A stretch of 64,000 nucleotides of DNA from NCBI RefSeq assembly GCF_029690065.1, contig NZ_CP121463.1:558001-622000 (forward strand), read 5' to 3'. The notes under the pieces were generated by a model that worked only from the letters and a program-made list of their open reading frames with translations, had not been told where the DNA came from and ran no database searches. Of this stretch, positions 1,691-43,563 are shown piece by piece. The DNA comes from Arthrobacter sp. Y-9. Its GTDB lineage: Bacteria > Actinomycetota > Actinomycetes > Actinomycetales > Micrococcaceae. Position 1 is the stretch's first letter. Each line of letters starts with the position of its first letter. The position numbers and the translations under genes were made by a program.

Positions 1691-4525
1691 ATGCCGTTGA
1701 ACAACCCCCTGCCCTCCGCCGTCCCGAACCCGGCCGACCCCAGCGAGGAACTGGCCGCGGAGCTGCGCGCCGACGTGCGCCGGGTCTCCACCCTCCTGGG
1801 ACAGTCCCTGGTGCGCCAGCATGGGCCCGAGCTCCTCAAGCTGGTCGAGCAGGTGCGCCTGCTGACCAAGGAGTCCAAGGAAGCCGCGCGCGGCGTCGGT
1901 GACGCCACCGGGCCGTGGAGCGCCGACGACGTCGCGCAGCAGGTCCGCGAACTGCTCTCCTCCCTGCCGCTCGAGGAGGCCACGCGCCTGGTCCGTGCCT
2001 TCGCCTTCTACTTCCACCTGGTGAATGCGGCCGAGCAGGTGCACCGCGTCCGCGTCCTGCGCTCCCGGGCCGAGAAGGACGGCTGGCTCGCGCGGGCCGT
2101 CACCGAGATCGCCGAACACGCCGGCACCGAGGCCCTCCAGGACCTGGTCAACGAACTCGACGTCCGCCCGGTGTTCACCGCCCACCCCACGGAGGCCTCG
2201 CGCCGCTCCGTGCTGGACAAGCTCCGCGCCCTCTCCGATGTCCTGTCCGAGCCCACCGAGGACGGCACCGCGGCACGCAGCCGCCAGGACCGGCGACTGG
2301 CCGAGATCATCGACCAGATGTGGCAGACCGACGAACTGCGCCAGGTCCGCCCCACCCCGATCGACGAGGCCCGCAACGCCATCTACTATCTCGGCAACAT
2401 CCTCACGGGCGCCATGCCGGAAGTCATGACCGAACTCGGCGAGCTCCTGGCCGAACACGGCGTCACCCTGCCCGCCGAGAAGGCCCCGATCCGTTTCGGT
2501 TCCTGGATCGGCGGTGACCGGGACGGCAACCCCAATGTGACGGCCGAAGTCACCCGGGAGATCCTCCAGCTCCAGAACCAGAACGCGATCCGGATCGCCA
2601 TCTCCCTCCTGGACGAGCTCATCTCCGTCCTCTCCAACTCCACGGCCCTGGCCGGCTCCAGCGAGGCGCTTCAGGAATCGCTCCGGGAGGACCTGGCGAA
2701 GCTGCCCGGTCTCGACAAGCGCGTCCTCGAGCTGAACGCCCAGGAGCCGTACCGCCTCAAGCTGACCTGCATCAAGGCCCGGCTGCTCAACACGGGCCGC
2801 CGGATCGCCAACGGCGGCCCCCACGAACCGGGCCGTGACTACGTCAGCACCGAGGCGATCCTGGCGGATCTGCGCCTCGTGGAAGACTCCCTGCGCGAGC
2901 ACTCCGCGTCCCTGGCCGCCGACGGCGCCCTGGCCCGGGTGCAGCGCGCGGTCGCCTCGATCGGGCTGCAGCTCGCCACGCTGGACATCCGCGAACACGC
3001 GGACCACCACCACGACGCCGTCGGGCAGTTGTTCGACCGCATCGGCGAGCTGAGCGGCCCGTACGCCGAGCTCTCCCGCGAAGAGCGCTGGGAGGTGCTG
3101 CGGGCCGAACTGGCGTCGCACCGCCCGCTCTCGGGCCACCCGATCGTGCTGGACGGCGCCGCGGACAACACGTACAACGTCTTCCGCGTCATCCGGCAGG
3201 CGCTCAAGGCGTACGGCCCTGACGTGATCGAGACGTACATCATCTCGATGACACGTGGCGCGGACGACGTCCTAGCCCCCGCGGTCCTGGCCCGCGAGGC
3301 GGGACTGGTCCAGCTGCACGGCGAGACCCGGTACGCCAAGATCGGCTTCGCGCCACTTCTGGAGACCGTGGACGAGCTGCGGGCCTCGGAGCAGATCGTG
3401 GACCAGCTGCTCTCCGACCCGTCCTACCGCGAACTCGTGCGGCTGCGCGGCGACGTGCAGGAGATCATGCTCGGCTACTCGGATTCCAACAAGGAGTCCG
3501 GCGTGATGACCAGTCAGTGGGAGATCCACAAGACGCAGCGCAAGCTCCGCGATGTGGCCCTCAAGCACGGCGTGCGGCTGCGCCTCTTCCACGGTCGCGG
3601 CGGTTCCGTGGGCCGTGGCGGCGGACCCACCTATGACGCCATCCTGGCCCAGCCGAACGGCGTCCTGGAAGGCGAGATCAAGTTCACCGAGCAGGGCGAG
3701 GTCATCAGCGACAAGTACTCGCTGCCCGAGCTGGCCCGGGAGAACCTGGAGCTCTCGCTGGCCGCCGTCATGCAGGGCTCGGCCCTGCACCGCGCCCCGC
3801 GGACCACGGAGGAGGAGCGCGAACGGTACGGCCAGGTCATGGACGTCATCTCCGACGCAGCCTTCGCCCGCTACCGCTCGCTGATCGACGATCCCGATCT
3901 GCCCGCGTACTTCCTCGCCTCCACCCCGGTGGAGCAGCTGGGGCAGCTCAACATCGGATCCCGTCCGTCCAAGCGACCCGATTCCGGGGCCGGTCTGGGT
4001 GGGCTGCGGGCCATCCCGTGGGTGTTCGGCTGGACCCAGTCCCGTCAGATCGTGCCCGGCTGGTTCGGTGTGGGCTCAGGCCTGAAGGCGGCCCGGGAAG
4101 CCGGTCTGGAGGACGAGCTCCGGGAGATGGCCGAGCGCTGGAACTTCTTCGCCTCGGTGCTGTCCAACGTCGAGATGACCCTGGCCAAGACGGACATGGA
4201 CATCGCGAGCCACTATGTCGGCACCCTGGTGCCGGAGGAACTGCACCGCCTCTTCGACGCCATCCGTGCCGAGCACGCGCTGACGGTCGAGGAAGTGGAG
4301 CGCCTGACGGGTGAGTCGGAGCTTCTCGAGGCCCAGCCCACGCTGCAGCGGTCCCTGCGCGTCCGCGATCAGTACCTGGACCCGATCAGCTACCTCCAGG
4401 TCGAGCTGCTGCGCCGCGTCCGGGAGGAGGCGGGCTCCGGGGAGTCGGAGATCGCCGAGACCCTGCAGCGCGCCATGCTCATCACGATCAACGGCGTGGC
4501 CGCCGGCCTGCGCAACACGGGCTGA
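1691..4525 (+). CDS. ppc: phosphoenolpyruvate carboxylase
   Basis: Catalyses carboxylation of phosphoenolpyruvate with bicarbonate to oxaloacetate, the main anaplerotic reaction; cytoplasmic homotetramer in this family. At 944 residues it has the usual bacterial length. Diagnostic motifs are intact: VFTAHPTEA with catalytic His165, [23 protein letters not shown], the glycine-rich [13 protein letters not shown] loop, GSRPSKR, and [13 protein letters not shown]. The protein ends in GLRNTG, close to the expected NTG terminus. The reading frame opens farther upstream, but the ATG at 1691 is chosen because GAGGAAG lies just before it and the preceding codons do not look like family sequence. Pairs functionally with the PEP carboxykinase at the right end of the window. 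Confidence 0.97.
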
Positions 4526-4543
4526 GTCCGCACCGCGCCGGGC

Positions 4544-4575
4544 GGCGCGGGGACCGGGAGACCGGGCCCCGCGCC
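4544..4575. terminator. hairpin between convergent ppc and DedA genes
   Basis: GGCGCGGGG (4544-4552) and CCCCGCGCC (4567-4575) form a perfect 9-bp inverted repeat with a 14-nt loop, 19 nt after the ppc stop. There is no T-run, so it may be a transcript-end stabiliser rather than an intrinsic terminator. It is followed by three CCGTCGTCGT units at 4574-4614. Confidence 0.5.
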
Positions 4576-4625
4576 GTCGTCGTGTCGGCCGTCGTCGTAC
4601 TGCGCCGTCGTCGTGTCCGTGCCAG

Positions 4626-5216
4626 TCAGGAAGCGCGACGACGGCGGCGGGTGACCACGATGCCCAGCACCCCGCCCACCAGCACACCCACCGCGAGGCC
4701 CAGCAGTGAGCTGACCCAGAACGGCAGGCGGGTGGTCTGCCCGGTGACGAAGCCGAGGCCGATGGTCCACGTCGCCCACAGCACACTGCCCAGCAGCGAA
4801 CACGCCACGAACGTGCGGGTGGGGATGTCCGCGATCCCGGAGCCGGCGGACAGGACCAGTCGGCCGCCCGGCAGGAATCGCAGCCCGATGATCACGCCGT
4901 ACGTGGGGGTCCTGCCGGCGCGTTCCAGCGCGCGGCGGATGCCCGCATGGATTCTCGAGGTGAGGCTCCACCGGTCCATGAGGTGCGCGAGCCGTCGTTT
5001 GAACAGCAGGAACACCGCGAGCTCGCCCAGGAATGACCCGAGCGTGGCGAGGGCCAGCGCGAGCGGCAGTGAGCAGTGCCCCTCGGCCGCGAGAGCACCC
5101 GCCGCCACCACGAGGGCCTCGGACGGCAGCGGCGGGAAGACGGTGTCCGCCATCACCAGGGGGACGATCCACCAGTAGAGCGCGGTGCTCCACGTGGCGG
5201 GATCGGAGAAGTCCAT
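4626..5216 (-). CDS. DedA/SNARE-associated family inner-membrane protein
   Basis: A 196-residue integral membrane protein of the DedA (VTT-domain) family, whose members are linked to lipid carrier (undecaprenyl phosphate, PE) flipping and membrane homeostasis. Visible hallmarks are the hydrophobic re-entrant start VFPPLPSEALVVAAG, the glycine-rich LGSFLGELAVFLLF, and the G-(x)n-RFLPGGRLVLSAGSG stretch that carries the conserved arginine and F/RxxP motif. The C-terminus has a final membrane helix and a basic RRRRRAS end. The frame extends upstream, but the ATG at 5216 gives the normal family length; a GTG six codons earlier is possible. No strong ribosome site is visible. It is convergent with ppc and stands alone. 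Exact substrate unknown. Confidence 0.85.
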   Translation of the reverse strand: MDFSDPATWSTALYWWIVPLVMADTVFPPLPSEALVVAAGALAAEGHCSLPLALALATLGSFLGELAVFLLFKRRLAHLMDRWSLTSRIHAGIRRALERAGRTPTYGVIIGLRFLPGGRLVLSAGSGIADIPTRTFVACSLLGSVLWATWTIGLGFVTGQTTRLPFWVSSLLGLAVGVLVGGVLGIVVTRRRRRAS

Positions 5217-5346
5217 GGCAACAAGGTACGTCACGCGGACCCGGGGTGGGGCCGGAGTGGGGCCGGGACGCCGTGGCGAAGGGCCGGTACAGTGGGCACG
5301 TCCGCTGGTGCGGATCATTCGTACGGAGATCTTTGGGGGTATTTCC

Positions 5347-6332: not shown

Positions 6333-7301
6333 TCAGCCCCGCCGCGCCTCCGACAGCGTCAGCTCGCTCCGGTACTCCACGGGCTTGCCGGACAGCGGAT
6401 CGACGAAGCGGATCCCGCGGGCCAGGAGCTGGAGCGGACGGTCGTAGTCGTCCGGGGCATTGTCCAGGAGGACCGGATAGAAGGGGTCGTTCAGGATCCC
6501 CAGCCCCAGCGACGCCATGTGCACGCGGAGCTGATGCGTCTTCCCGGTGTGCGGCTCCAGGCGGTAGAGGGCGCGCCCGCGGGGGTGGACGGCGTCGTCG
6601 TGCGCTGCCGTCCGGTGTGGCGGCTCGATGATCTCCACCCGTTCGATGCGCGTCTCCGTGTTCGGCTCACCGTCGACGACCTGGGCCAGCAGGTAATCGC
6701 GGGACTTCGTCATGCGGTTGCGGACGAGAGCCGGGAATTCCGGGTCCGCGAAGCCGTTTTCGGGGACGACGGCGGACACGCACTCGTACTCCTTCTGCAC
6801 CTTCCGCTTCTCGAAGAGGACCTGATACTTCCCGCGCGTCTCCGGATTGGTGGAGAACAGCAGCACGCCCGCCGTCATGCGGTCGAGGCGGTGCATGGGG
6901 ATGAGGTCCGGGATGTCGAGCAGTTTCCGCAGCCTGACCAGGGCTGACTCCTGGATGTAGGTGCCGCCGGGCGTCGTGGGCAGGAAGTGCGGCTTGTCGA
7001 CGACGAGCAGATCGCCGTCCTGGTGCAGGATCGAGAGCTCGACCGGCAGCCGCTCCTCGGGTGGCAGCGTGCGGTAGTACCAGATGAAGGTGTGGTCGCG
7101 GAGGGGAGTGGTGCGGTCCAGGGGAGCGCCGGTCTCGCCGACGATCTCCCCGGCGTCGAAGCGGTCCAGGATCCCCTGCGGATCGATGTGACCCCAGCGG
7201 TGCTGCATGTAGTCCAGCGCGGTCTCCCACGGGCCGTCGTGCGGCAGACGCAGGCGGGTGGCGTTGACGCCGTCGCGGACCGGCAAGGGGGATTTCATCA
7301 C
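6333..7301 (-). CDS. RluA-family RNA pseudouridine synthase
   Basis: Isomerises specific uridines in rRNA or tRNA to pseudouridine. The catalytic motif is HRLDRMTAG with the nucleophilic aspartate at residue 140, and the conserved LEPHTGKTHQLRVHMA motif follows toward the C-terminus. At 322 residues it is a full-length catalytic protein with an N-terminal region (WGHIDPQGILDRFDAGEIV) resembling the S4-like extension seen in actinobacterial members annotated as pseudouridylate synthase. Which RNA position is modified cannot be inferred. The longest start is the GTG at 7301; an ATG lies one codon later at 7298. It is divergent from the VOC-family gene, with a palindromic repeat between them. 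Confidence 0.9.
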   Translation of the reverse strand: MMKSPLPVRDGVNATRLRLPHDGPWETALDYMQHRWGHIDPQGILDRFDAGEIVGETGAPLDRTTPLRDHTFIWYYRTLPPEERLPVELSILHQDGDLLVVDKPHFLPTTPGGTYIQESALVRLRKLLDIPDLIPMHRLDRMTAGVLLFSTNPETRGKYQVLFEKRKVQKEYECVSAVVPENGFADPEFPALVRNRMTKSRDYLLAQVVDGEPNTETRIERVEIIEPPHRTAAHDDAVHPRGRALYRLEPHTGKTHQLRVHMASLGLGILNDPFYPVLLDNAPDDYDRPLQLLARGIRFVDPLSGKPVEYRSELTLSEARRG

Positions 7302-7358
7302 CGGGACAGTTTAGTCGGCCCGTTGCTCGGCTCGGCCGGTCCGGCTGTCGCGTGACCT

Positions 7359-7403
7359 TGCACTTTCTCGGGCTTCCGGGGCGCGGAACCCCGAGAAAGT
7401 GCA
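7359..7403. repeat. 20-bp palindrome in divergent intergenic region
   Basis: TGCACTTTCTCGGGCTTCCG (7359-7378) and its complement (7384-7403) match at 19 of 20 positions around a 5-nt loop. It lies between the divergent pseudouridine synthase and VOC genes and has no T-tract. It is distinct in sequence from the four-copy family that begins 0.5 kb to the right. Confidence 0.8.
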
Positions 7404-7473
7404 CTCTCGACCCTCACGGGTGGCTCATTCCGGGGGGGTCCCCGACGCGCGGCCCCGGGCGTAGGCTGGCGCC

Positions 7474-7911
7474 ATGACCACTTTCAGGCTGGACCATGTC
7501 GGTGTGACCGTGCGGGATCTGGAAGGCGCCATCGCATTCTTCGAGGCGCTGGGATTCGAGGTGGAGGGCCGTGCCGAGGTCGGCGGCCCCTGGGCGGACC
7601 GGGTCAACGGGCTCGACGGGACCCAGGTGGAGATGGCGATGGTCCGGCCGCCCGGCGGCGGTGAGGGGAAGCTCGAACTCACCCGGTTCATCACGCCGCC
7701 CGCCGAAGGCGACTCGGACGGCCGCCCGGTGAACACCTACGGCTTCAGCCATATCTGCTATCAGGTGGGTGACGTGCGCGACGTCGTGGCGCGCGCCGAG
7801 GCCGCGGGCTACGGTCTGGTGCGCGAACTGGTCAATTACCAGGACGTCTTCCTGCTGGCCTACCTCCGCGGCCCCGAGGGACTCCTGGTCGAGGTCGCCG
7901 AAGCGCTCTGA
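7474..7911 (+). CDS. VOC/glyoxalase superfamily protein
   Basis: A 145-residue single-module vicinal oxygen chelate protein with paired beta-alpha-beta-beta-beta units. The N-terminal LDHVGVTVRDLEGAIAFFEALGF carries the usual first metal-ligand histidine (His8); the second half has the typical YGFSHICYQVGDV with a second histidine, and the end GLLVEVAE supplies the expected terminal glutamate. These members include glyoxalase I, dioxygenases and antibiotic-binding proteins; the substrate is not predictable here. The ATG at 7474 gives a standard family start. It is transcribed divergently from the pseudouridine synthase and is followed by a palindromic repeat. Confidence 0.85.
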   Translation: MTTFRLDHVGVTVRDLEGAIAFFEALGFEVEGRAEVGGPWADRVNGLDGTQVEMAMVRPPGGGEGKLELTRFITPPAEGDSDGRPVNTYGFSHICYQVGDVRDVVARAEAAGYGLVRELVNYQDVFLLAYLRGPEGLLVEVAEAL

Positions 7912-7944
7912 GCCCTGCGTCTTCCCCGGCCGCCCTCCCCTCTG

Positions 7945-8014
7945 ATCGACTGCTCCACAGGATGCCGCTTTCCGCCGATTCCGGCCCGGAAACGCATCCT
8001 ATGGAGCAGTCGAT
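7945..8014. repeat. palindromic repeat family A, copy 1
   Basis: A 70-nt imperfect inverted repeat starting ATCGACTGCTCCACAGGATG and ending GGAGCAGTCGAT. The outer 13 bp of each arm are perfectly complementary and the centre contains CCGATTCCGG. Three related copies lie at 9426-9499, 10746-10815 and 13118-13194. This copy lies between the VOC gene and the ArsR-like regulator, both on the plus strand. Confidence 0.92.
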
Positions 8015-8034
8015 GGTTGGAGGGAAAAATGTCC

Positions 8035-8052
8035 TTGACAATAAAATTTGTC
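8035..8052 (+). promoter_or_regulatory. putative promoter/operator of the ArsR-like gene
   Basis: TTGACA (8035-8040) overlaps a perfect small palindrome GACAA-TAAAAT-TTGTC (8037-8052) located 18 nt before the start codon, in a locally AT-rich patch. TAAAAT itself could serve as a -10 element. Because the next gene encodes a winged-helix regulator, autoregulation at this dyad is a reasonable inference. Confidence 0.5.
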
Positions 8053-8069
8053 GGTGAGATCCTGGAGTC

Positions 8070-8705
8070 ATGAAGGACATCGAAGTGATCGAGGATCCCC
8101 AGGTCGCGGAGGTCTCGCTGGACCCGATGCGCTCGCGGATCCTGGAAGCGCTCGTGGAACCCGCCTCGGCGGCCACGGTCGCCGGGCGGATCGGAGCGCC
8201 TCGGCAGAAGGTGAACTACCACCTGAAGGCGCTCGAATCGGCCGGTCTCGTGGAGCTGGTGGAGGAGCGGCGCAAGGGCAACATGACCGAGCGGGTCATG
8301 CAGGCCAGTGCCGGCTCGTACCTGATCTCGCCACTGGCCCTGGCGTCCATGGCGCCGAAGCCCGAGAAGTACACCGACCGCTTCTCCGCCTTCTGGATGC
8401 TGGCCCTCGCGGGCCGGCTCGTCCAGGAGGTGGGCAAGCTGATCGCGGGAGCCGTCGCGGCGCGGAAGCCGTTGGCGACCTTCGCGATCGACGCCGAGCT
8501 CAGCTTCGCCAGCGCCCGCGACCGTGCGGAGTTCGCGCAGGAGCTCTCCGCCGTCGTCGACTCCCTCGTGGAGAAGTATCACGACGCCGGCGCCCCCGGC
8601 GCGCGCAGGCACCGCCTGGTGCTCGCGCTGCACCCCGAACTGAAGGCCGGCGGGCAGGTCGCCACGCCGGAGCATGACATCACCGACACCCCGGACAAGG
8701 AGTAG
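8070..8705 (+). CDS. ArsR-like winged-helix transcriptional regulator
   Basis: A 211-residue regulator with an N-terminal winged helix-turn-helix of the ArsR/HTH_20 type at about residues 14-75 (DPMRSRILEALVEPASAATVAG, then RQKVNYHLKALESAGLVEL). No metal-binding CxC motif is present, so metal sensing is unlikely. The C-terminal half is alpha-helical and ends in a hydrophilic tail. It is followed after 4 nt by an SRPBCC-domain gene; ArsR-like regulator plus AHSA1/SRPBCC protein is a recurrent actinobacterial pair in which the regulator usually controls the operon. Start ATG at 8070 with GGAG upstream. Confidence 0.85.
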   Translation: MKDIEVIEDPQVAEVSLDPMRSRILEALVEPASAATVAGRIGAPRQKVNYHLKALESAGLVELVEERRKGNMTERVMQASAGSYLISPLALASMAPKPEKYTDRFSAFWMLALAGRLVQEVGKLIAGAVAARKPLATFAIDAELSFASARDRAEFAQELSAVVDSLVEKYHDAGAPGARRHRLVLALHPELKAGGQVATPEHDITDTPDKE

Positions 8706-8709
8706 GACC

Positions 8710-9402
8710 ATGAGTGAGAACCGCGAATTCCGCATCGAAGCCACCACCGAGGTGGAGGCCACGCCGGAGCGGGTGTGGGAGGCGATCAATGACGCCACCG
8801 CCGCCTGGATGTTCCCGACGGACCAGTGGCCCGCCGAGTACCCCGTCAAGGAGTACCCCACGCATGTGATCTCGAGGATGGACGGCCCGGACGGGTGGTT
8901 CAATCAGCTGGAGAACACCATCGAGGCGCTGCCGGGCGGCAAGTCCCGGATCCGCTATGTGCACAGCGGCGTCTTCACGGACGACTGGGACCAGCAGTAC
9001 GACGGCGCGTCCAAGCACACGCTCTTCTACCAGCACACCCTGGGGCAGTACCTCAAGTACTTCGACGGTCAGCCCGTGGTGTTCACCGACGTTCAGGGCC
9101 CTGCCGCCTCCGGAGCCCCCGACGCGTTCGACAAGCTCAAGGAGTCCTTCGGGATCGCCGACGCGCAGGCCGGGGACAAGGTCGCCGTGTCGGTGCCCGG
9201 GGTCGGCGAGCTGAAGGGTGAGCTCGACTATGCCAATGAATGGTTCTTCGGCATCCGCACGGGCGACGCTCTGTACCGCTTCTTCGGCCGGAACCATTTC
9301 GGTTCGGTGGTCGGCCTGACGGTCCACGACTTCTCCGGGTCGGGGGATTCCGAAGCCACCGCCGCCGCGTGGGGCCGTTACCTCGAGGGTCTCTACGCCT
9401 GA
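8710..9402 (+). CDS. SRPBCC/AHSA1-domain protein
   Basis: A 230-residue member of the START/Bet v1-like SRPBCC fold, which encloses a hydrophobic ligand cavity. The N-terminus FRIEATTEVEATPERVWEAINDA is the classic AHSA1/polyketide-cyclase opening and the end AAAWGRYLEGLYA matches the C-terminal helix. The middle is somewhat longer than minimal domains. No catalytic residues can be named. The ATG at 8710 is chosen because it lies 4 nt after the regulator stop with AAGGAG just upstream, and the frame extended further would overlap the regulator. Co-expression with the ArsR-like gene is near certain; the ligand is unknown. Confidence 0.85.
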   Translation: MSENREFRIEATTEVEATPERVWEAINDATAAWMFPTDQWPAEYPVKEYPTHVISRMDGPDGWFNQLENTIEALPGGKSRIRYVHSGVFTDDWDQQYDGASKHTLFYQHTLGQYLKYFDGQPVVFTDVQGPAASGAPDAFDKLKESFGIADAQAGDKVAVSVPGVGELKGELDYANEWFFGIRTGDALYRFFGRNHFGSVVGLTVHDFSGSGDSEATAAAWGRYLEGLYA

Positions 9403-9425
9403 CCCGCTCTTTGCCCCGTATCTCC

Positions 9426-9499
9426 AGATCGACTGCTCCAGAGGATGTCGTTTTCCGCCGATTCCGGCGTGGAAACGCATCCTCTGGAGCAGTCGATCT
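9426..9499. repeat. palindromic repeat family A, copy 2
   Basis: A 74-nt inverted repeat with outer arms AGATCGACTGCTCCAGAGGATG and its perfect complement, the best-preserved copy in the window. It lies 23 nt after the SRPBCC stop, in the convergent gap before the TetR gene. The hairpin could block transcription from both sides, although no T-run follows. Confidence 0.93.
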
Positions 9500-9581
9500 T
9501 TGTGGGGGTGGGTCGGGGCGGTGGGCAGTCTCGGGGTGGGGCCGGATGGCCCGGGGGGGCGGGGCGGGCGACGAGGGGGCG

Positions 9582-10169
9582 TCAGGCCGCCCAGGCGCGT
9601 TCGATCGCGTCGAGCGCGGCCAGATACTGGGCGTCCCGGTCGGCGGTGGGTGATCCGAGGCCGGCCATCTCGAGGCTGACCATCCCGTGGACCTGGGCCC
9701 AGATGACGGCGGCTACCTCCTGAGGCGAAGCGTCGCGCAGGGTTCCCCGGTCCTGACCTGCCCGGATGGCGGAGAGCAAGGGCTGCAAGGTGATCTCGGA
9801 TTCCGGCTCGGGTGGGTCCTGCTGGCCTTCTTTGAGATTCAGGAGGCCGCCGAACATGAGCCGGTAGAGGGCGGGGTGGTCCAGCGCCCACTGGCGGTAG
9901 GCGATGCCCAGGGCGCGGAGACCGCCGTCGGCGGCCGCTTCCTGTGCGGCGCCGAAGGAGGCGAAGCCGTGGTTCACGACAGCCTGCAGAAGCTGCGCCT
10001 TGCCGCCGAACAATGAGTAGATCGCGGTGGTCGAGGTGCCCGCGGCTGCGGCGAGGTCGCGGAGCGTCACCCCGGCCGGGCCGCGGTCGGCGACCAGGGC
10101 GGCCGTGGTGTCCAGAAGGGTGCGCCGGAGCTGATCGTCATGAATCACGGGTCTTGCCATGTCTGACAT
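9582..10169 (-). CDS. TetR/AcrR-family regulator, divergent to DUF4188 gene
   Basis: A 195-residue repressor-type protein. The N-terminal helix-turn-helix (TTAALVADRGPAGVTLRDLAAAAG, then STTAIYSLFGGKAQLLQAVV) is typical TetR at about residues 15-60; the remainder is the all-helical ligand domain with the WHG-like features IAYRQWALDHPALYRLMFGG. The ATG at 10169 gives a normal N-terminal arm; an ATG three codons later is an alternative, and no good ribosome site is visible for either. It is divergent from the DUF4188 gene, and a perfect GTAAC-AGT-GTTAC palindrome lies in the 46-nt gap, so it very probably represses itself and that neighbour. Confidence 0.88.
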   Translation of the reverse strand: MSDMARPVIHDDQLRRTLLDTTAALVADRGPAGVTLRDLAAAAGTSTTAIYSLFGGKAQLLQAVVNHGFASFGAAQEAAADGGLRALGIAYRQWALDHPALYRLMFGGLLNLKEGQQDPPEPESEITLQPLLSAIRAGQDRGTLRDASPQEVAAVIWAQVHGMVSLEMAGLGSPTADRDAQYLAALDAIERAWAA

Positions 10170-10185
10170 TGTTTCATAACCTTGT

Positions 10186-10204
10186 TTTGTAACAGTGTTA
10201 CCAA
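10186..10204. promoter_or_regulatory. predicted TetR operator
   Basis: GTAAC (10189-10193), AGT, GTTAC (10197-10201) form a perfect palindrome flanked by TTT and CAA, in the short gap between the divergent TetR and DUF4188 genes. The pattern TGTAACA-n-TGTTACA is common for AcrR-type repressors. It overlaps the region where both promoters must lie. Confidence 0.7.
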
Positions 10205-10215
10205 ACGGAGGCACC

Positions 10216-10761
10216 ATGAGTTCCACAGTTTTCCCGGGTCGGTACACGGCGGCCCTGAAGGATCCGGCCGGGCAGAGCGTTCAGACTGGGCGGGACGTCG
10301 GCTCGCGCGATGAGGTGACGGTGTTCCTCATCGGGATGAGAGCGAATCGGTGGTGGAAACTGGGCCGCATCGCGCAGGTCACGTCCGCCATGCCGAAGAT
10401 GCTCGCACATCTGGCGCGCACCCCCGAAGCCGGCATGCTCGGGTTCCACACCTGGTTCGGGCGGACCACGATCATCCTCAGCTACTGGGAGAGTCCGGAG
10501 CATCTCAATCGCTTCGCGGCGGACCGGGAGGCACCCCACCTCGAACCGTGGCGCCGCTTCATGAAGGAACTGGCGGGAAGCGGCGATGTCGGAGTCTGGC
10601 ATGAGACATACCGGGTCCGTCCGGGTGATTTCGAGACCGTCTACAGCGACATGCCCCGGTTCGGCCTGGCCGCCGCAGCGCAGCACGTTCCGGTGGGGCG
10701 GGGGACCGGGACCGCCCGCGAGCGGATCCAGCGCGGCGCCCCCCGATCGACTGCTCCCTAG
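10216..10761 (+). CDS. DUF4188-family (monooxygenase-like) protein
   Basis: A 181-residue protein with the features of DUF4188: DEVTVFLIGMRANRWWK near the N-terminus, GMLGFHTWFGRTTIILSYW in the middle and GIWHETY-like VGVWHETYRV toward the end. The fold resembles the dimeric alpha-beta barrel of heme-degrading or small monooxygenases, but no reaction is established. The ATG at 10216 follows GGAGG at 10208-10212. Its last five codons (RSTAP) and the TAG stop lie inside copy 3 of the palindromic repeat, so the native C-terminus has apparently been replaced by repeat sequence. Likely controlled by the divergent TetR. Confidence 0.85.
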   Translation: MSSTVFPGRYTAALKDPAGQSVQTGRDVGSRDEVTVFLIGMRANRWWKLGRIAQVTSAMPKMLAHLARTPEAGMLGFHTWFGRTTIILSYWESPEHLNRFAADREAPHLEPWRRFMKELAGSGDVGVWHETYRVRPGDFETVYSDMPRFGLAAAAQHVPVGRGTGTARERIQRGAPRSTAP

Positions 10762-10815
10762 GATGTCATTCCGGGCCCGAATCGGTGGGAAACGGCATCG
10801 TATGGAGCAGTCGAT
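10746..10815. repeat. palindromic repeat family A, copy 3
   Basis: Begins ATCGACTGCTCCCTAGGATG and ends GGAGCAGTCGAT; the outer 12 bp are perfectly paired, while the inner part is more diverged than in copies 1 and 2. The TAG within CTCCCTAGG is the stop codon of the DUF4188 gene. It sits in the convergent gap before the MocR-type regulator. Confidence 0.9.
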
Positions 10816-10827
10816 GTGGGGGCGGGG

Positions 10828-12315
10828 TCAGGCGATCGCGACGGCGGGCGGATCCGGCAGTCGACGGCGGAGCCCGGGGGTGCGGAGCAGCTGAGCCTGG
10901 GCTTCCTTGAGGGCCAGGACGCCGCGTTCGAGATCGTTCGCCGGCAGTGTGAACGGCAGCCGGAGGAAGTGCTCGAACGCCCCGCCGACGCCGAACCGCG
11001 GCCCCGCGGCCAGGCGCACCCCGCGCTGGGCCGCCAGGAGGGTGAGCGCCGCGCTGCTCACGGCCTCGCCGTGGGCGCCCTGCCGCGGGAGCCGGCACCA
11101 CACGGACAGTCCGCCGTCGGGGATTTCGGTCCGCCATTCGGGCAGGTGTTCCTCCAGGAGCGCGAGCAGCACGTCCCGCTGGGCCCGCAGTTCGGTCAAT
11201 CGGGGTCCGAGGCCCGGCAGGTCGTGCTGCAGGATGTGCCGACCCGCCAGTTGTTCGGCCACGGGTCCGCCGAGATCCAGAGGGGTCCTGGCCCGGGCCA
11301 TCCGCTGGATGTTCTCGGCCGAGGACCGGGCCCAGCCGATACGCAGGCCACCCCAGTGAGTCTTGCTGAGGGAGCCGATCGTGACGACGCCGGGAGCGTA
11401 GGACCCCAGGTGCGGGGGAGCGATGCCGTCGAAGTCGATGTCCCGCAGCGTCTCATCGGCGATCAGCACGGTGCCCGACGCCGCGGCGGCCCGGGCCACC
11501 CGGCGTCGCTGTTCGGCGGGCATGAGCCGGCCGGTGGGGTTCTGGAAATCCGGGATGAGGTACGCGGCGGCCGGCCGGTGCCGTGCCAGGGCCGCCTCGA
11601 AGCCGTCGACGTCCCAGCCCTCCGCGAGGGGGAACGCGAGTGGGATGGCTTTGCACTGGCGGGCGCCGATCGCGTCCAGCGCATGAGGGTAGCTGGGGTG
11701 TTCCACAAGGACGCGGCTGCCCGGGGCGACGAATGCCGCCAGAGCGAGGGCCATGGCCTGCTGTGCCCCGCCGGTGACCATGACCTGGTCCACGGTGGTG
11801 GGCAGCCCTTCGGCGGTGAATTTCGCGGCGATCGCCTCCCGGAGCTCGGGCAGGCCGTACGAGTCGTAGCCGAAACCGGGAAGGAGCGCGGGGAGTTCGC
11901 TGAGCGCCGCGGTGTAGGCCTGGTGGACGGCCGCGCCGTTCGCCGGGAGGCAGGCGTACGCGAAGTCGACCACGCCGTGCGGTGCGCGGAGCCCCGGCGC
12001 ATAGTCCGTGCGGGCCGCCCAGGGATCCTCCTCGCCGGTGCGGCTCGGGATCGAGGTTCGGGCGCGCGTGCCCTGCCCAGCCGAGAGGAATCCCTCTTCC
12101 CGCAGCGCGTTGTAGGCGGCGGTGACGGTGGTCCGGCTGACGCCGAGGGACAGCGCGAGCGTGCGTTCGCTGGGCAGCGGGGAGTCGAGCGGAAGCCTGC
12201 CGTCCATGATGAGAAGGCGGACGACGTCGGCCAGCTCGCGGTACGCCGGTGACGAGCCGCGGCGCCACTCGCCGAGCAGCCTGACGAAGACGGTGCTGGA
12301 TGTGGCCTGATGCAT
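10828..12315 (-). CDS. MocR/YczR-type regulator (GntR wHTH fused to aminotransferase fold)
   Basis: A 495-residue chimera: a GntR winged helix-turn-helix at about residues 20-90 (SPAYRELADVVRLLIMDG, PLPSERTLALSLGVSRTTV) followed by a fold-type I aminotransferase domain. The PLP-binding lysine is Lys318 in GSLSKTHWGG, with the cofactor aspartate and asparagine in IPDFQNPTGR. MocR proteins use bound PLP as a sensor rather than as a catalytic enzyme. The divergent gene encodes a YczE-like membrane protein; a MocR subfamily paired with YczE has been described, and this locus fits it. The ATG at 12315 is the natural start. Repeated AGCCAGT/TGGCTAT elements in the intergenic region are candidate binding sites. 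Confidence 0.92.
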   Translation of the reverse strand: MHQATSSTVFVRLLGEWRRGSSPAYRELADVVRLLIMDGRLPLDSPLPSERTLALSLGVSRTTVTAAYNALREEGFLSAGQGTRARTSIPSRTGEEDPWAARTDYAPGLRAPHGVVDFAYACLPANGAAVHQAYTAALSELPALLPGFGYDSYGLPELREAIAAKFTAEGLPTTVDQVMVTGGAQQAMALALAAFVAPGSRVLVEHPSYPHALDAIGARQCKAIPLAFPLAEGWDVDGFEAALARHRPAAAYLIPDFQNPTGRLMPAEQRRRVARAAAASGTVLIADETLRDIDFDGIAPPHLGSYAPGVVTIGSLSKTHWGGLRIGWARSSAENIQRMARARTPLDLGGPVAEQLAGRHILQHDLPGLGPRLTELRAQRDVLLALLEEHLPEWRTEIPDGGLSVWCRLPRQGAHGEAVSSAALTLLAAQRGVRLAAGPRFGVGGAFEHFLRLPFTLPANDLERGVLALKEAQAQLLRTPGLRRRLPDPPAVAIA

Positions 12316-12317
12316 GA

Positions 12318-12356
12318 AGCCAGTATTCCAAAGTGGCTATGTTTTTCATAGCCAGT
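12318..12356. promoter_or_regulatory. predicted MocR operator region
   Basis: AGCCAGT occurs as a direct repeat at 12318-12324 and 12350-12356, and TGGCTATG (12334-12341) faces CATAGCCA (12347-12354) as a perfect inverted repeat with a 5-T spacer. Direct repeats plus an inverted half-site between a MocR gene and its target agree with the two-site binding known for MocR regulators. Confidence 0.7.
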
Positions 12357-12374
12357 TCCTGGGAGAGTGGAGCC

Positions 12375-13133
12375 ATGATGTTCCGAAGGATTTCTCAGCT
12401 CATTGCCGGACTGGCCTTGTACGGCTTCTCCATCGCCCTCTTCGTCCGCGCCGGACTGGGCACCGCACCCTGGGATGTCCTGCACCGCGGGGTTTCACAC
12501 TTGACCGGCATCAGCACGGGTGTGGTGATCATCGTGCTGAGCTTCCTGATCCTGCTGCTCTGGATCCCCCTGCGACAGAAGCCGGGCTGGGGAACCCTCG
12601 CCAATGCCGTCCTGGTGGGGTTGTTCGTGGACTTGTCGATGCCGTTCATCCCCCAAGCGGACGGGCTGATCTGGCAGCTGGTCTTCCTGCTCGGGGCCCT
12701 CGTCCTCAACGCTGTGGCCACGGCGTGCTACATCAGTGCGAACTTCGGCCCCGGTGCCCGGGATGGCCTCATGACCGGTCTGGCGCGGCGCACGGGATGG
12801 CCGCTCTGGCGGTGCCGCACGCTGATCGAGGTGACGGTCGTGGCCATCGGCTGGGCCCTGGGCGGCGTCCTCGGTGTGGGAACGGTCGCGTACGCCTTCG
12901 GCATCGGGCCCCTGGTGCAGTGGCTCATGCCGGTCTTCGCCATCCCGGGCGTGCGCCGCACATCCGTGGAGACCGATGAAGCACCCGTAGCCGAGGCCGT
13001 GGCAGTGCCGGTGGAGGCTGCAGCGTCGGTGCCTGCGGAAGCAGCACGGCCGGTGGACCGAACGCGGCCCCTGGACGCCGGAGAGGCCGTGGAAGCAGCC
13101 GCCGTCGAGCGCTTCCCGTCGACTGCTCCGTAG
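12375..13133 (+). CDS. YczE/YyaS/YitT-like membrane protein
   Basis: A 252-residue integral membrane protein with about five helices in residues 5-190. Family landmarks are GFSIALFVRAGLGTAPWDVLHRG and NFGPGARDGLMTGLARRTGWP, which match YczE-type proteins of unknown transport function. After residue 195 comes a Pro/Ala/Val-rich cytoplasmic tail (AEAVAVPVEAAASVPAEAARP). The final residues PSTAP and the TAG stop are encoded by copy 4 of the palindromic repeat, so the tail is probably an acquired read-through extension. The ATG at 12375 is chosen over the upstream GTG because of the GGGAGAG and GTGGAG elements just before it. Expression probably depends on the divergent MocR protein. Confidence 0.87.
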   Translation: MMFRRISQLIAGLALYGFSIALFVRAGLGTAPWDVLHRGVSHLTGISTGVVIIVLSFLILLLWIPLRQKPGWGTLANAVLVGLFVDLSMPFIPQADGLIWQLVFLLGALVLNAVATACYISANFGPGARDGLMTGLARRTGWPLWRCRTLIEVTVVAIGWALGGVLGVGTVAYAFGIGPLVQWLMPVFAIPGVRRTSVETDEAPVAEAVAVPVEAAASVPAEAARPVDRTRPLDAGEAVEAAAVERFPSTAP

Positions 13134-13194
13134 GAGTCCCTTTCGGGCAGACGTCCCCTTCGGGCCTGGAACGGCATCCTCCGGAGCAGTCGAC
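13118..13194. repeat. palindromic repeat family A, copy 4
   Basis: Outer arms GTCGACTGCTCCG and CGGAGCAGTCGAC are perfect complements; the centre is longer and diverged, containing its own CCCTTTCGGG and CCCCTTCGGG-like repeats. The TAG overlapping its left arm (13131-13133) ends the YczE-like gene. Located in the convergent gap with the MBL-fold hydrolase. Confidence 0.88.
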
Positions 13195-13207
13195 GGGGGT
13201 ACGGGGG

Positions 13208-13837
13208 TCAGTGGCCCCGGGCGATCCATTCCTGCAGATGCGGAGCTTCGGCTCCGATGCTGGTCGAATCGCCGTGGCCGGTGTGGACCACCGTCTCGGC
13301 AGGGAGCGACAGGAGGCGCTCCTGGATCGATTCGATGATGGTCGGGAAGTCGCTGTAGGACCGGCCCGTGGCTCCGGGGCCACCGGAGAACAGCGTGTCC
13401 CCGGTGAAGACCGCGCCGAGCCCGGGTGCGTGGAAGCTCACGGACCCAGGCGAGTGCCCCGGGGTGTGCAGGGCGACGAGTTCAGTGCCGCCGACCTTGA
13501 ACCGCTGCCCGTCCGCGATCTCCGCGTCCGGGGCCGTTCCCGGGTACACGGCTTCCCAGAGCATCTGATCCTCCGGGTTCAGGAGCACCGGTGCGTTCAC
13601 CAGGTCGGCGAACTCGCGGGCATGCCGGATGTGGTCGTCGTGGCCGTGGGTGAGCAGGACGGCCTGGACGTTCCGGCCCGCCACGGCGGCGGCGACCGCC
13701 GCGGCGTCGTGCGCGGGATCGATGACCAGCACCTCGGCGTCGTCCCCCACGATCCAGACGTTGTTGTCCACGTCCCAGGTGCCGCCGTCCAGGGAGAAGG
13801 TTCCGGACGTGACCAGGTGGTCGATGCGGGCGGTCAC
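13208..13837 (-). CDS. MBL-fold hydrolase paired with mscR
   Basis: A 209-residue metallo-beta-lactamase-fold hydrolase resembling glyoxalase II. The di-zinc motif LTHGHDDH is present, with further ligands in HTPGHSPGS and FTGDTLF and the final histidine in VHTGHGDST. Its start codon at 13837 overlaps the mscR stop by 4 nt (ATGA), so it is translationally coupled to the mycothiol-dependent formaldehyde dehydrogenase. In mycothiol producers this neighbour is thought to hydrolyse the S-formylmycothiol made by MscR to formate and mycothiol; that role is inferred from gene order and fold. Confidence 0.9.
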
Positions 13838-14928
13838 AGCTCCACCACCGAACGCAGCACTTCGCCGCGGTGCATCTTGTCGAAGGCGGCTTCGACATCG
13901 CCCAGGCCGATGCGCTCGGTCACGAAGGCGTCGAGCGGCAGGCGGCCCAGCCGGTACTGATCCACGAGCATGGGGAAGTCTCGGCTGGGCAGGCAGTCGC
14001 CGTACCAGGAGGACTTGAGGGAGCCACCGCGGCCGAACACATCGAGCAGCGGCAGGTCGAGGGTCATCTCCGGGGTGGGGACGCCGACCAGCACCACGCG
14101 CCCAGCCAGGTCACGGGCGTAGAAGGCCTGCTTGTACGTCTCAGGACGGCCGACCGCGTCGATCACGACGTCGGCGCCGAAGCCCCCGGTCAGCTCACGG
14201 ATGCCCTCGACGGGGTCCGTGTCACCGGAGACGATGCCGTGCGTGGCGCCCAGCGTCTTCGCGAGCTCCACCTTGGCGGGATCCAGGTCGACGGCGATGA
14301 TCGTCGTCGCGCCGGCCAGCTTCGCGCCCGCGATGGCGGCGATGCCCACGCCGCCGCAGCCGATCACGGCCACCGATTCCCCGCGCTTGACCTCGCCGGT
14401 GTTCATGGCGGCGCCGATTCCGGCCATGATGCCGCAGCCGAGGAGGCCGACGGCGGCGGGGTCCACATCATCATCGATCTTGGTGCACTGACCGGCGGCG
14501 ACCAGGGTCTTTTCCGCGAACGAGCCGATTCCGAGGGCCGGTGAGAGCGGGGTGCCGTCCTGAAGGGTCATCTTCTGGGTGGCGTTGTGCGTGGCGAAAC
14601 AGTACTGCGGCTGGCCCTTGGCACAGGCACGGCACGTGCCGCAGACGGCACGCCAGTTGAGGATGACACGGTCACCCGGCTTCAGATCGGTGACATCCGG
14701 GCCGACGGCGCTCACGACGGCCGTGGACTCGTGACCCAGGAGGTACGGGTAGTCGTCTCCGATGCCGCCGAGCTTGTAGTGCAGGTCCGTGTGGCAGACG
14801 CCGCAGCTCAGGACGTCGACGAGCGCCTCCCCGGGACCCGGGTCCGGCACCAGGATGGTCTCGATGCTCGCGGGAGCACCCTTCTCCCGGACGACGACTG
14901 CCTTGACTTCGTGGACGGCTGCGGCCAT
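13834..14928 (-). CDS. mscR: S-(hydroxymethyl)mycothiol dehydrogenase
   Basis: A 364-residue class III-type, zinc-dependent alcohol dehydrogenase that oxidises the mycothiol-formaldehyde adduct with NAD+; MscR also reduces S-nitrosomycothiol. Catalytic-zinc ligands are visible at Cys42 (SCGVCHTD) and His66-Glu67 (LLGHES); the structural-zinc cysteines are 96, 99, 102 and 110. The NAD-binding Rossmann motif is VIGCGGVG. Sequence such as [20 protein letters not shown] and [14 protein letters not shown] is characteristic of the mycothiol group. The ATG at 14928 is preceded by GGAGGTG; the frame continues upstream without family sequence. First gene of a two-gene operon with the MBL hydrolase. 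Confidence 0.95.
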
Positions 14929-43498: not shown

Positions 43499-43563
43499 CT
43501 CGCGAACCGCCAGTAGGCGCCCGTATGGCCCACGGATACGGGCGCCTACTGGCGGTTCGCGAG
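43499..43563. repeat. perfect 28-bp palindrome between tadA and upp
   Basis: The sequence from 43499 (CTCGCGAACCGCCAGTAGGC...) to 43526 is repeated in exact inverted orientation at 43536-43563 around the 9-nt loop GGCCCACGG. It lies in the divergent gap 28 nt upstream of tadA and 59 nt upstream of upp. It is a different sequence from both the 7359 palindrome and the family A repeats. Confidence 0.95.

Follow-up and report, generated by a model that had tools for sequence, protein, structure and literature searches.

How do two unrelated genes come to encode the same last four residues and the same stop codon? The question is raised by two genes of the window analyzed here, a 64,000-nucleotide stretch of the genome of the soil bacterium Arthrobacter sp. 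Y-9 (contig NZ_CP121463.1, positions 558,001 to 622,000; coordinates given without a locus name are those of the window). The first gene (10216 to 10761, + strand) encodes a protein of 181 amino acids and ends in ...GAPR-TCG-ACT-GCT-CCC-TAG, with S-T-A-P and TAG at 10747 to 10761 (+); the second (12378 to 13133, + strand) encodes a membrane protein of 251 amino acids and ends in ...RFP-TCG-ACT-GCT-CCG-TAG, the corresponding positions being 13119 to 13133 (+). The original prediction derived STAP and TAG of both genes from one repeat arm, and the sequence confirms this, both gene ends being the 5' arms of palindromes, at 10747 to 10814 and 13119 to 13193. The repeat is common to both, but the exact shared word is TCGACTGCTCC-N-TAG, and the base before TCGACT differs (A at the first gene, G at the second). 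The first protein, labeled DUF4188, matches Pfam PF13826, currently named Monooxy_af470-like, which we take to be the former DUF4188; the label "YczE-like" for the second found no confirmation, its match to YitT_membrane (PF02588) reaching only 20.7 bits, below the cut-off of 24.3.

The two palindromes belong to a family with four members in the window: three elements of 68 bp (element 1, 7946 to 8013, 34 nt after the stop of a glyoxalase-family gene; element 2, 9429 to 9496, and element 3, 10747 to 10814, both between convergent genes) and one of 75 bp (element 4, 13119 to 13193). We compared the Y-9 genome (G000) with three congeneric genomes (G001, G002, and G003); the orthologue of element 4 is 58 bp in G001 and G003, so that the window copy is 17 bp longer. 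All four fold strongly as RNA, and elements 3 and 4 fold far better than shuffled sequences on both strands (z of -5.1 to -6.8). The 11-mer of the arm occurs 8 times exactly in the window and 9 times with one mismatch allowed (mean of 2.45 in shuffled sequences, 9 being reached in 0 of 100 shuffles), and 76 exact copies are present in the 3.57-Mb genome, where the reversed pattern gives 0 and 1. In the stretches fetched from the Y-9 genome, 38 paired copies were found, measuring 58 bp (8 copies), 68 bp (20), 69 bp (9), and 75 bp (1); most exact 11-mers are in pairs, and 11 unpaired ones are listed. The outer arm of 11 to 12 bp (ATCGACTGCTCC...GGAGCAGTCGAT) is fixed and near-invariant around a variable interior, and the adjoining two or three pairs vary on both sides yet stay paired, with compensated changes at two of them in 11 and 8 of the 38 sequences. 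In the alignment, all copies thus share terminal inverted repeats, as in a MITE.

How widespread is this family? A covariance model built from the Y-9 copies detected it in 15 of 149 genomes and 7 of 32 genera of Micrococcaceae, and since at most 33 candidates were scored per genome, its copy counts saturate. Exact paired arms were found in 58 stretches from Arthrobacter, Pseudarthrobacter, and Sinomonas records, of which about two, including L111 and L105 (from other phyla or from unplaced MAGs), probably match by chance. The positions within the Y-9 genome are clustered, with 10 gaps below 3 kb against 1.16 expected at random (maximum of 6 in 2000 simulations). No Rfam family reached its gathering score between 7500 and 14000, where two weak matches were at chance level. 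In a literature search that covered few subscription papers, we found no report of this palindrome family in Arthrobacter or Micrococcaceae, and the arm sequence itself returned only unrelated papers, apparently as primers or constructs.

Elements of this family lie behind genes. At least one gene ends toward 36 of the 38 Y-9 copies (20 between convergent and 16 between co-directional genes), and the other 2 are between divergent genes. When the intergenic gaps of 30 bp or more in these loci are counted, an element is present in 20 of 44 between convergent genes, 16 of 119 between co-directional genes, and 2 of 48 between divergent genes (Fisher P = 3.3e-6 for convergent versus divergent). The loci had been selected for carrying elements, a selection that affects every gap class alike. 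The median distance from stop codon to arm is 18 nt for 56 gene ends of the Y-9 genome, of which 2 are at -15, the interval from -14 to -1 being empty; the simple codon-usage gene finder behind these calls gives rough starts but exact stops. Because the elements stand behind genes on both strands, they are most likely bidirectional 3'-end hairpins that end or protect mRNA. A stable G+C-rich hairpin behind the gene is present, as in an intrinsic terminator, and a canonical terminator scan from 7300 to 14000 returned 0 terminator-like sites and no T tract. Downstream of the hairpin, T is weakly enriched at +4 to +9, and 40 of 139 gene ends of the genus have TTT within 14 nt. Because the T tract is missing and the enrichment is weak, we only infer termination.

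The STAP end is not confined to the two window genes. With orthologues counted once, a gene frame enters the arm at 13 distinct gene positions, always in the STAP frame; 11 of these genes stop at the NTAG of the arm and the other 2 after a few more codons. Gene ends that reach into the arm number 2 of 56 in G000, 3 of 51 in G001, 3 of 44 in G003, 0 of 17 in G002, and 8 of 97 at the named loci, a set that includes nine A. horti loci from the same genome as G002, so that these last two counts overlap. At the named loci (59 elements), 6 gene ends are at -15, giving STAP, and 2 read on in the same frame to -27, giving the tails STAPELSF and STAPQRPF. G002 adds two STAP genes that were missed by the pair finder or fetched later, encoding a glyoxalase-family protein and a tetrapyrrole methylase. 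The proteins with this end are unrelated, including fumarylacetoacetate hydrolase, dienelactone hydrolase, MPAB/Lcp oxygenase, pseudouridine synthase, a LacI-type regulator, galactose-1-phosphate uridylyltransferase, and others, and their Pfam domains are complete or nearly so, which indicates addition of tails and not truncation of domains. One further element, at L111, lies inside a predicted gene, but this stretch is the probable chance match from another phylum or an unplaced MAG mentioned above.

That the two window genes merely end at similar GC-rich sequences is practically out of the question: the agreement of 15 bases is exact for a pattern with a variable base, the arm is family-wide, and cases recur in several genera. 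The existence of the palindrome family refutes such a coincidence.

Why is only one frame used? The arm contains no stop codon in any frame, but in one of the frames the sequence that follows immediately often reads NTAG. Among the gene ends surveyed, no true arm entry in the other two frames was found, and the chance of 13 of 13 in one specified frame is about 6 in ten million if frames are taken as equal and independent. Since the other frames lack a stop in the arm and would traverse the hairpin, the use of one frame is better seen as a filter than as a targeting device, and selection would act against the other two frames.

The most direct view of how such a tail arises comes from the glyoxalase-family gene (7474 to 7911, + strand), next to which an element is present in all four species. 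The gene ends in CTC-TGA in G000 and G003 and CTC-TAG in G001, followed by the element. In G002, the position of the native stop reads CTG-CAG, and the protein continues with QPPGPS-STAP-stop inside the element. In orthologues from outside the genus, the protein ends near the position of the native stop (16 of 30 matches at +1 residue, against +10 for G002), and the STAP end in G002 is thus probably the derived state, a polarity that rests on orthologues about 40 to 53% identical. The tetrapyrrole methylase gene shows a similar alternation: its stop abuts the element in G000, G001, and G003, and the gene ends in STAP within the element in G002.

Are the ends of the two window genes of the same origin? 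Both end in STAP in G000, G001, and G003. Outside the genus, a STAP end was found at 0 of 27 orthologue loci read for the first gene and 0 of 26 for the second (the loci retrieved cover 30 of 36 and 30 of 97 listed matches, respectively, genus members included), so that the original prediction withstands its own refutation test. The first gene is absent from G002, and the second has its own TAA there, a few bases before a 58-bp element and in a non-STAP frame. Given this frame, simple stop loss alone would be insufficient for the second gene. We nevertheless infer that both may have taken the same route as the glyoxalase gene.

The explanation that we consider probable is capture of a stop codon from an old gene-end hairpin. 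A palindrome of 58 or 68 bp, long established at its site, would act there as the 3'-end hairpin behind a gene. If the gene loses its own stop or comes to end directly against the element, translation would enter the arm. Entry in the STAP frame would meet an immediate stop at NTAG and add S-T-A-P, and entry in either of the other two frames would run through the hairpin. The element would thus act as a nearby fallback stop. Because entry in this particular frame meets NTAG at once, the common tail may be regarded as captured, not designed.

The original prediction held instead that a mobile palindrome was apparently inserted at the 3' ends of both genes and replaced their termini, a reading that we considered as a recent, MITE-like insertion. 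Several features agree with such an insertion, namely, a fixed terminal word at both ends, dispersal of copies through the genome, the patchy presence in the family, and the lack of STAP tails at orthologues read outside the genus. Site conservation speaks against it. Across G000 to G003, conserved gene neighbors have the element in both genomes in 162 comparisons and in neither in 798, with 0 discordant among these 960 ordered comparisons, which cover fetched loci, count each pair from both sides, and include some degenerate copies added by hand. Four sites at first seemed private to G000, but the element is present at all four in G003 and at three in G001, one of them with a split arm seen in both G001 and G003; for the fourth, no G001 flank match was returned. 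At one of these places, G002 has an unrelated strong hairpin instead and a changed order of neighboring genes. The gene-end hairpin thus appears to be what is kept, and no new insertion is seen. Neither MITE-type empty sites nor insertion polymorphism was found among the fetched loci of the four genomes. The Y1 transposase (PF01797) was found in 0 of the 4 genomes, compared with 5 of 14 known genomes used as a control, and no transposase-bearing element with the same ends was noticed in the surroundings of the 76 exact 11-mer copies in the Y-9 genome. As judged from conserved neighbors, the elements are old and fixed at their sites, although some insertion must have preceded the split of the four species. 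Together with the intact domains and a glyoxalase tail that accompanies loss of the gene's own stop, this makes recent insertion an unlikely source of the tails.

What does change at these fixed sites is the interior. In 67 orthologous element pairs, flanks are 90.8% identical on average and interiors 77.0%, the latter ranging from full identity down to about 0.5. Unrelated 68-bp copies compared in the better orientation have a mean identity of 0.68, and the lowest orthologous pairs are at or below this value. Several orthologous pairs are near-identical in one half and not in the other. Length class differs by more than 5 bp in 14 of the 67 pairs, which include two with the 75-bp copy and two with an 85-bp reading in G001 that has an extra arm inside. 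Since point mutation alone cannot turn a 68-bp into a standard 58-bp interior, copying between sites or species is likely. Such exchange between sites means that some copying occurs, as recent insertion would also have it. It is possible, though doubtful, that the elements are fixed docking sites, at which interiors, and sometimes a gene between two elements, are exchanged by a putative recombination or conversion process recognizing the arms, with STAP tails as a by-product. If so, sites would have stayed fixed for as long as the genus has existed, with 58- and 68-bp interiors taking each other's place and gene units appearing or vanishing.

Could STAP-TAG itself be under selection, as a module of stop and transcript end in which the ribosome on the stop codon controls folding of the hairpin, making it a translation-sensitive terminator, or in which the proline before the stop lowers output? 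The use of the same frame at all 13 gene positions would fit, as would several reported effects. In Escherichia coli, moving a stop codon to 5 bp before a terminator lowered termination efficiency from about 90% to <10% (PMC4824070); if the element is a terminator, a stop codon within its arm should by analogy weaken termination during translation of the gene. REP hairpins reportedly cause ribosomes to stall when they lie within 15 nt of a stop (PMC12306157), and a proline codon before the stop favors trans-translation (tmRNA tagging), but Ala-Pro is not among the dipeptides named there as favorable (PMC3985003). Few of the gene ends at elements are involved (2 of 56 in G000), and orthologues alternate between native stop and STAP. 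Selection for the module is therefore very unlikely as the origin of the tails.

The closest precedent is found in Coxiella burnetii, where a QMITE2 copy supplies the C terminus of EnhC in strain Dugway and strain RSA 493 stops just before the same element (PMC5896051). A C terminus supplied by a repeat, with a sister strain stopping before it, is thus already known (PMC5896051), and the alternation of native stop and repeat stop resembles that of the glyoxalase gene. QMITE1 and QMITE2 are likewise short palindromic repeats at the 3' ends of functional genes, but they measure 150 to 400 bp with direct repeats (same source), whereas the Arthrobacter element has 58 or 68 bp and fixed arms, always contributes the residues STAP and in a single frame where a gene enters it, and undergoes exchange of its interior while the site stays fixed. 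Beyond that precedent, the present analysis adds a different and smaller family, one four-residue tail at 13 gene positions in several genera, and the interior exchange.

Other families of short palindromes share part of these features. REP/REPIN sequences are also repeated intergenic palindromes, many of them close behind stop codons; the Arthrobacter element is longer, with fixed outer arms and tens rather than hundreds of copies, and a REP/RAYT system was rejected on the lack of the RAYT (Y1, TnpA-REP) transposase from the four genomes. Bidirectional intrinsic terminators, including DUS-containing ones of Neisseria, place a conserved word as an inverted repeat between convergent genes, as seen here. 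Unlike these, the Arthrobacter element showed no T tract in the scan, and its word is mostly paired rather than free, which rules out a DUS-like free word. Integron attC sites, whose core sites are GTTRRRY and RYYYAAC, are imperfect palindromes of similar length behind genes, and some genes here are present or absent between two elements. Identity with attC was rejected on arm sequence, as ATCGACTGCTCC and GGAGCAGTCGAT contain no GTT or AAC, and the sites are scattered and syntenic rather than arrayed.

The STAP genes form a natural series in which unrelated proteins have the same C-terminal residues from one noncoding repeat, with orthologues that have the tail and orthologues that lack it, so that it becomes measurable whether placing a stop codon within a gene-end hairpin is costly or beneficial. 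For annotation, a common STAP end does not mean homology. If the exchange of interiors at fixed sites is confirmed, it would point to a process on short palindromes outside the known REP and MITE models.

Gene content also varies at these loci. Two divergent genes flanked by elements 2 and 3 (9582 to 10761; a TetR family gene and the first STAP gene) are absent from G002, where one degenerate element is in their place. More generally, one or two genes stand between two elements in one species and a single element stands between the same outer genes in a relative (L130 3914 to 5415 versus L219; L150 9925 to 10817 versus L235 and L243; L247 4008 to 4872 versus L146; window 9429 to 10814 versus L261). 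Gene gain and loss are enriched at elements in loci that were chosen around elements, and the listed events have an element on both sides in some cases, on one side in some, and on none in others, several of the inserted "genes" being weak predictions; for these reasons, exchange of gene cassettes figures here only as part of the docking-site possibility. L132, L221, and L254 versus L260 were not counted as an absence, since G002 also has two elements there with a long gap.

A few sites show further arrangements. In L130, the genes at 3121 to 3903 and 4125 to 5327, each just before an element, resemble each other in their tails (ARGPARRPVEQP and ARGPAREPLTQP), as though the end of the gene had been copied along with the element. 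In L246 of G003 (4065 to 4224), a 58-bp and a 68-bp element are 34 bp apart, and at the matching site in G000 and G001, two elements enclose a small predicted gene. The window also contains a 28-bp perfect inverted repeat with a 9-base loop (43499 to 43563), unrelated to the palindrome family. Finally, a second G+C-rich palindrome of the CCCCGGCGGC...GGGGGCCC type interrupts one element arm at several sites, as if nested within it (L297, about 952 to 1088; L299, about 973 to 1100; L261, 3601 to 3720; L303, 1003 to 1130).
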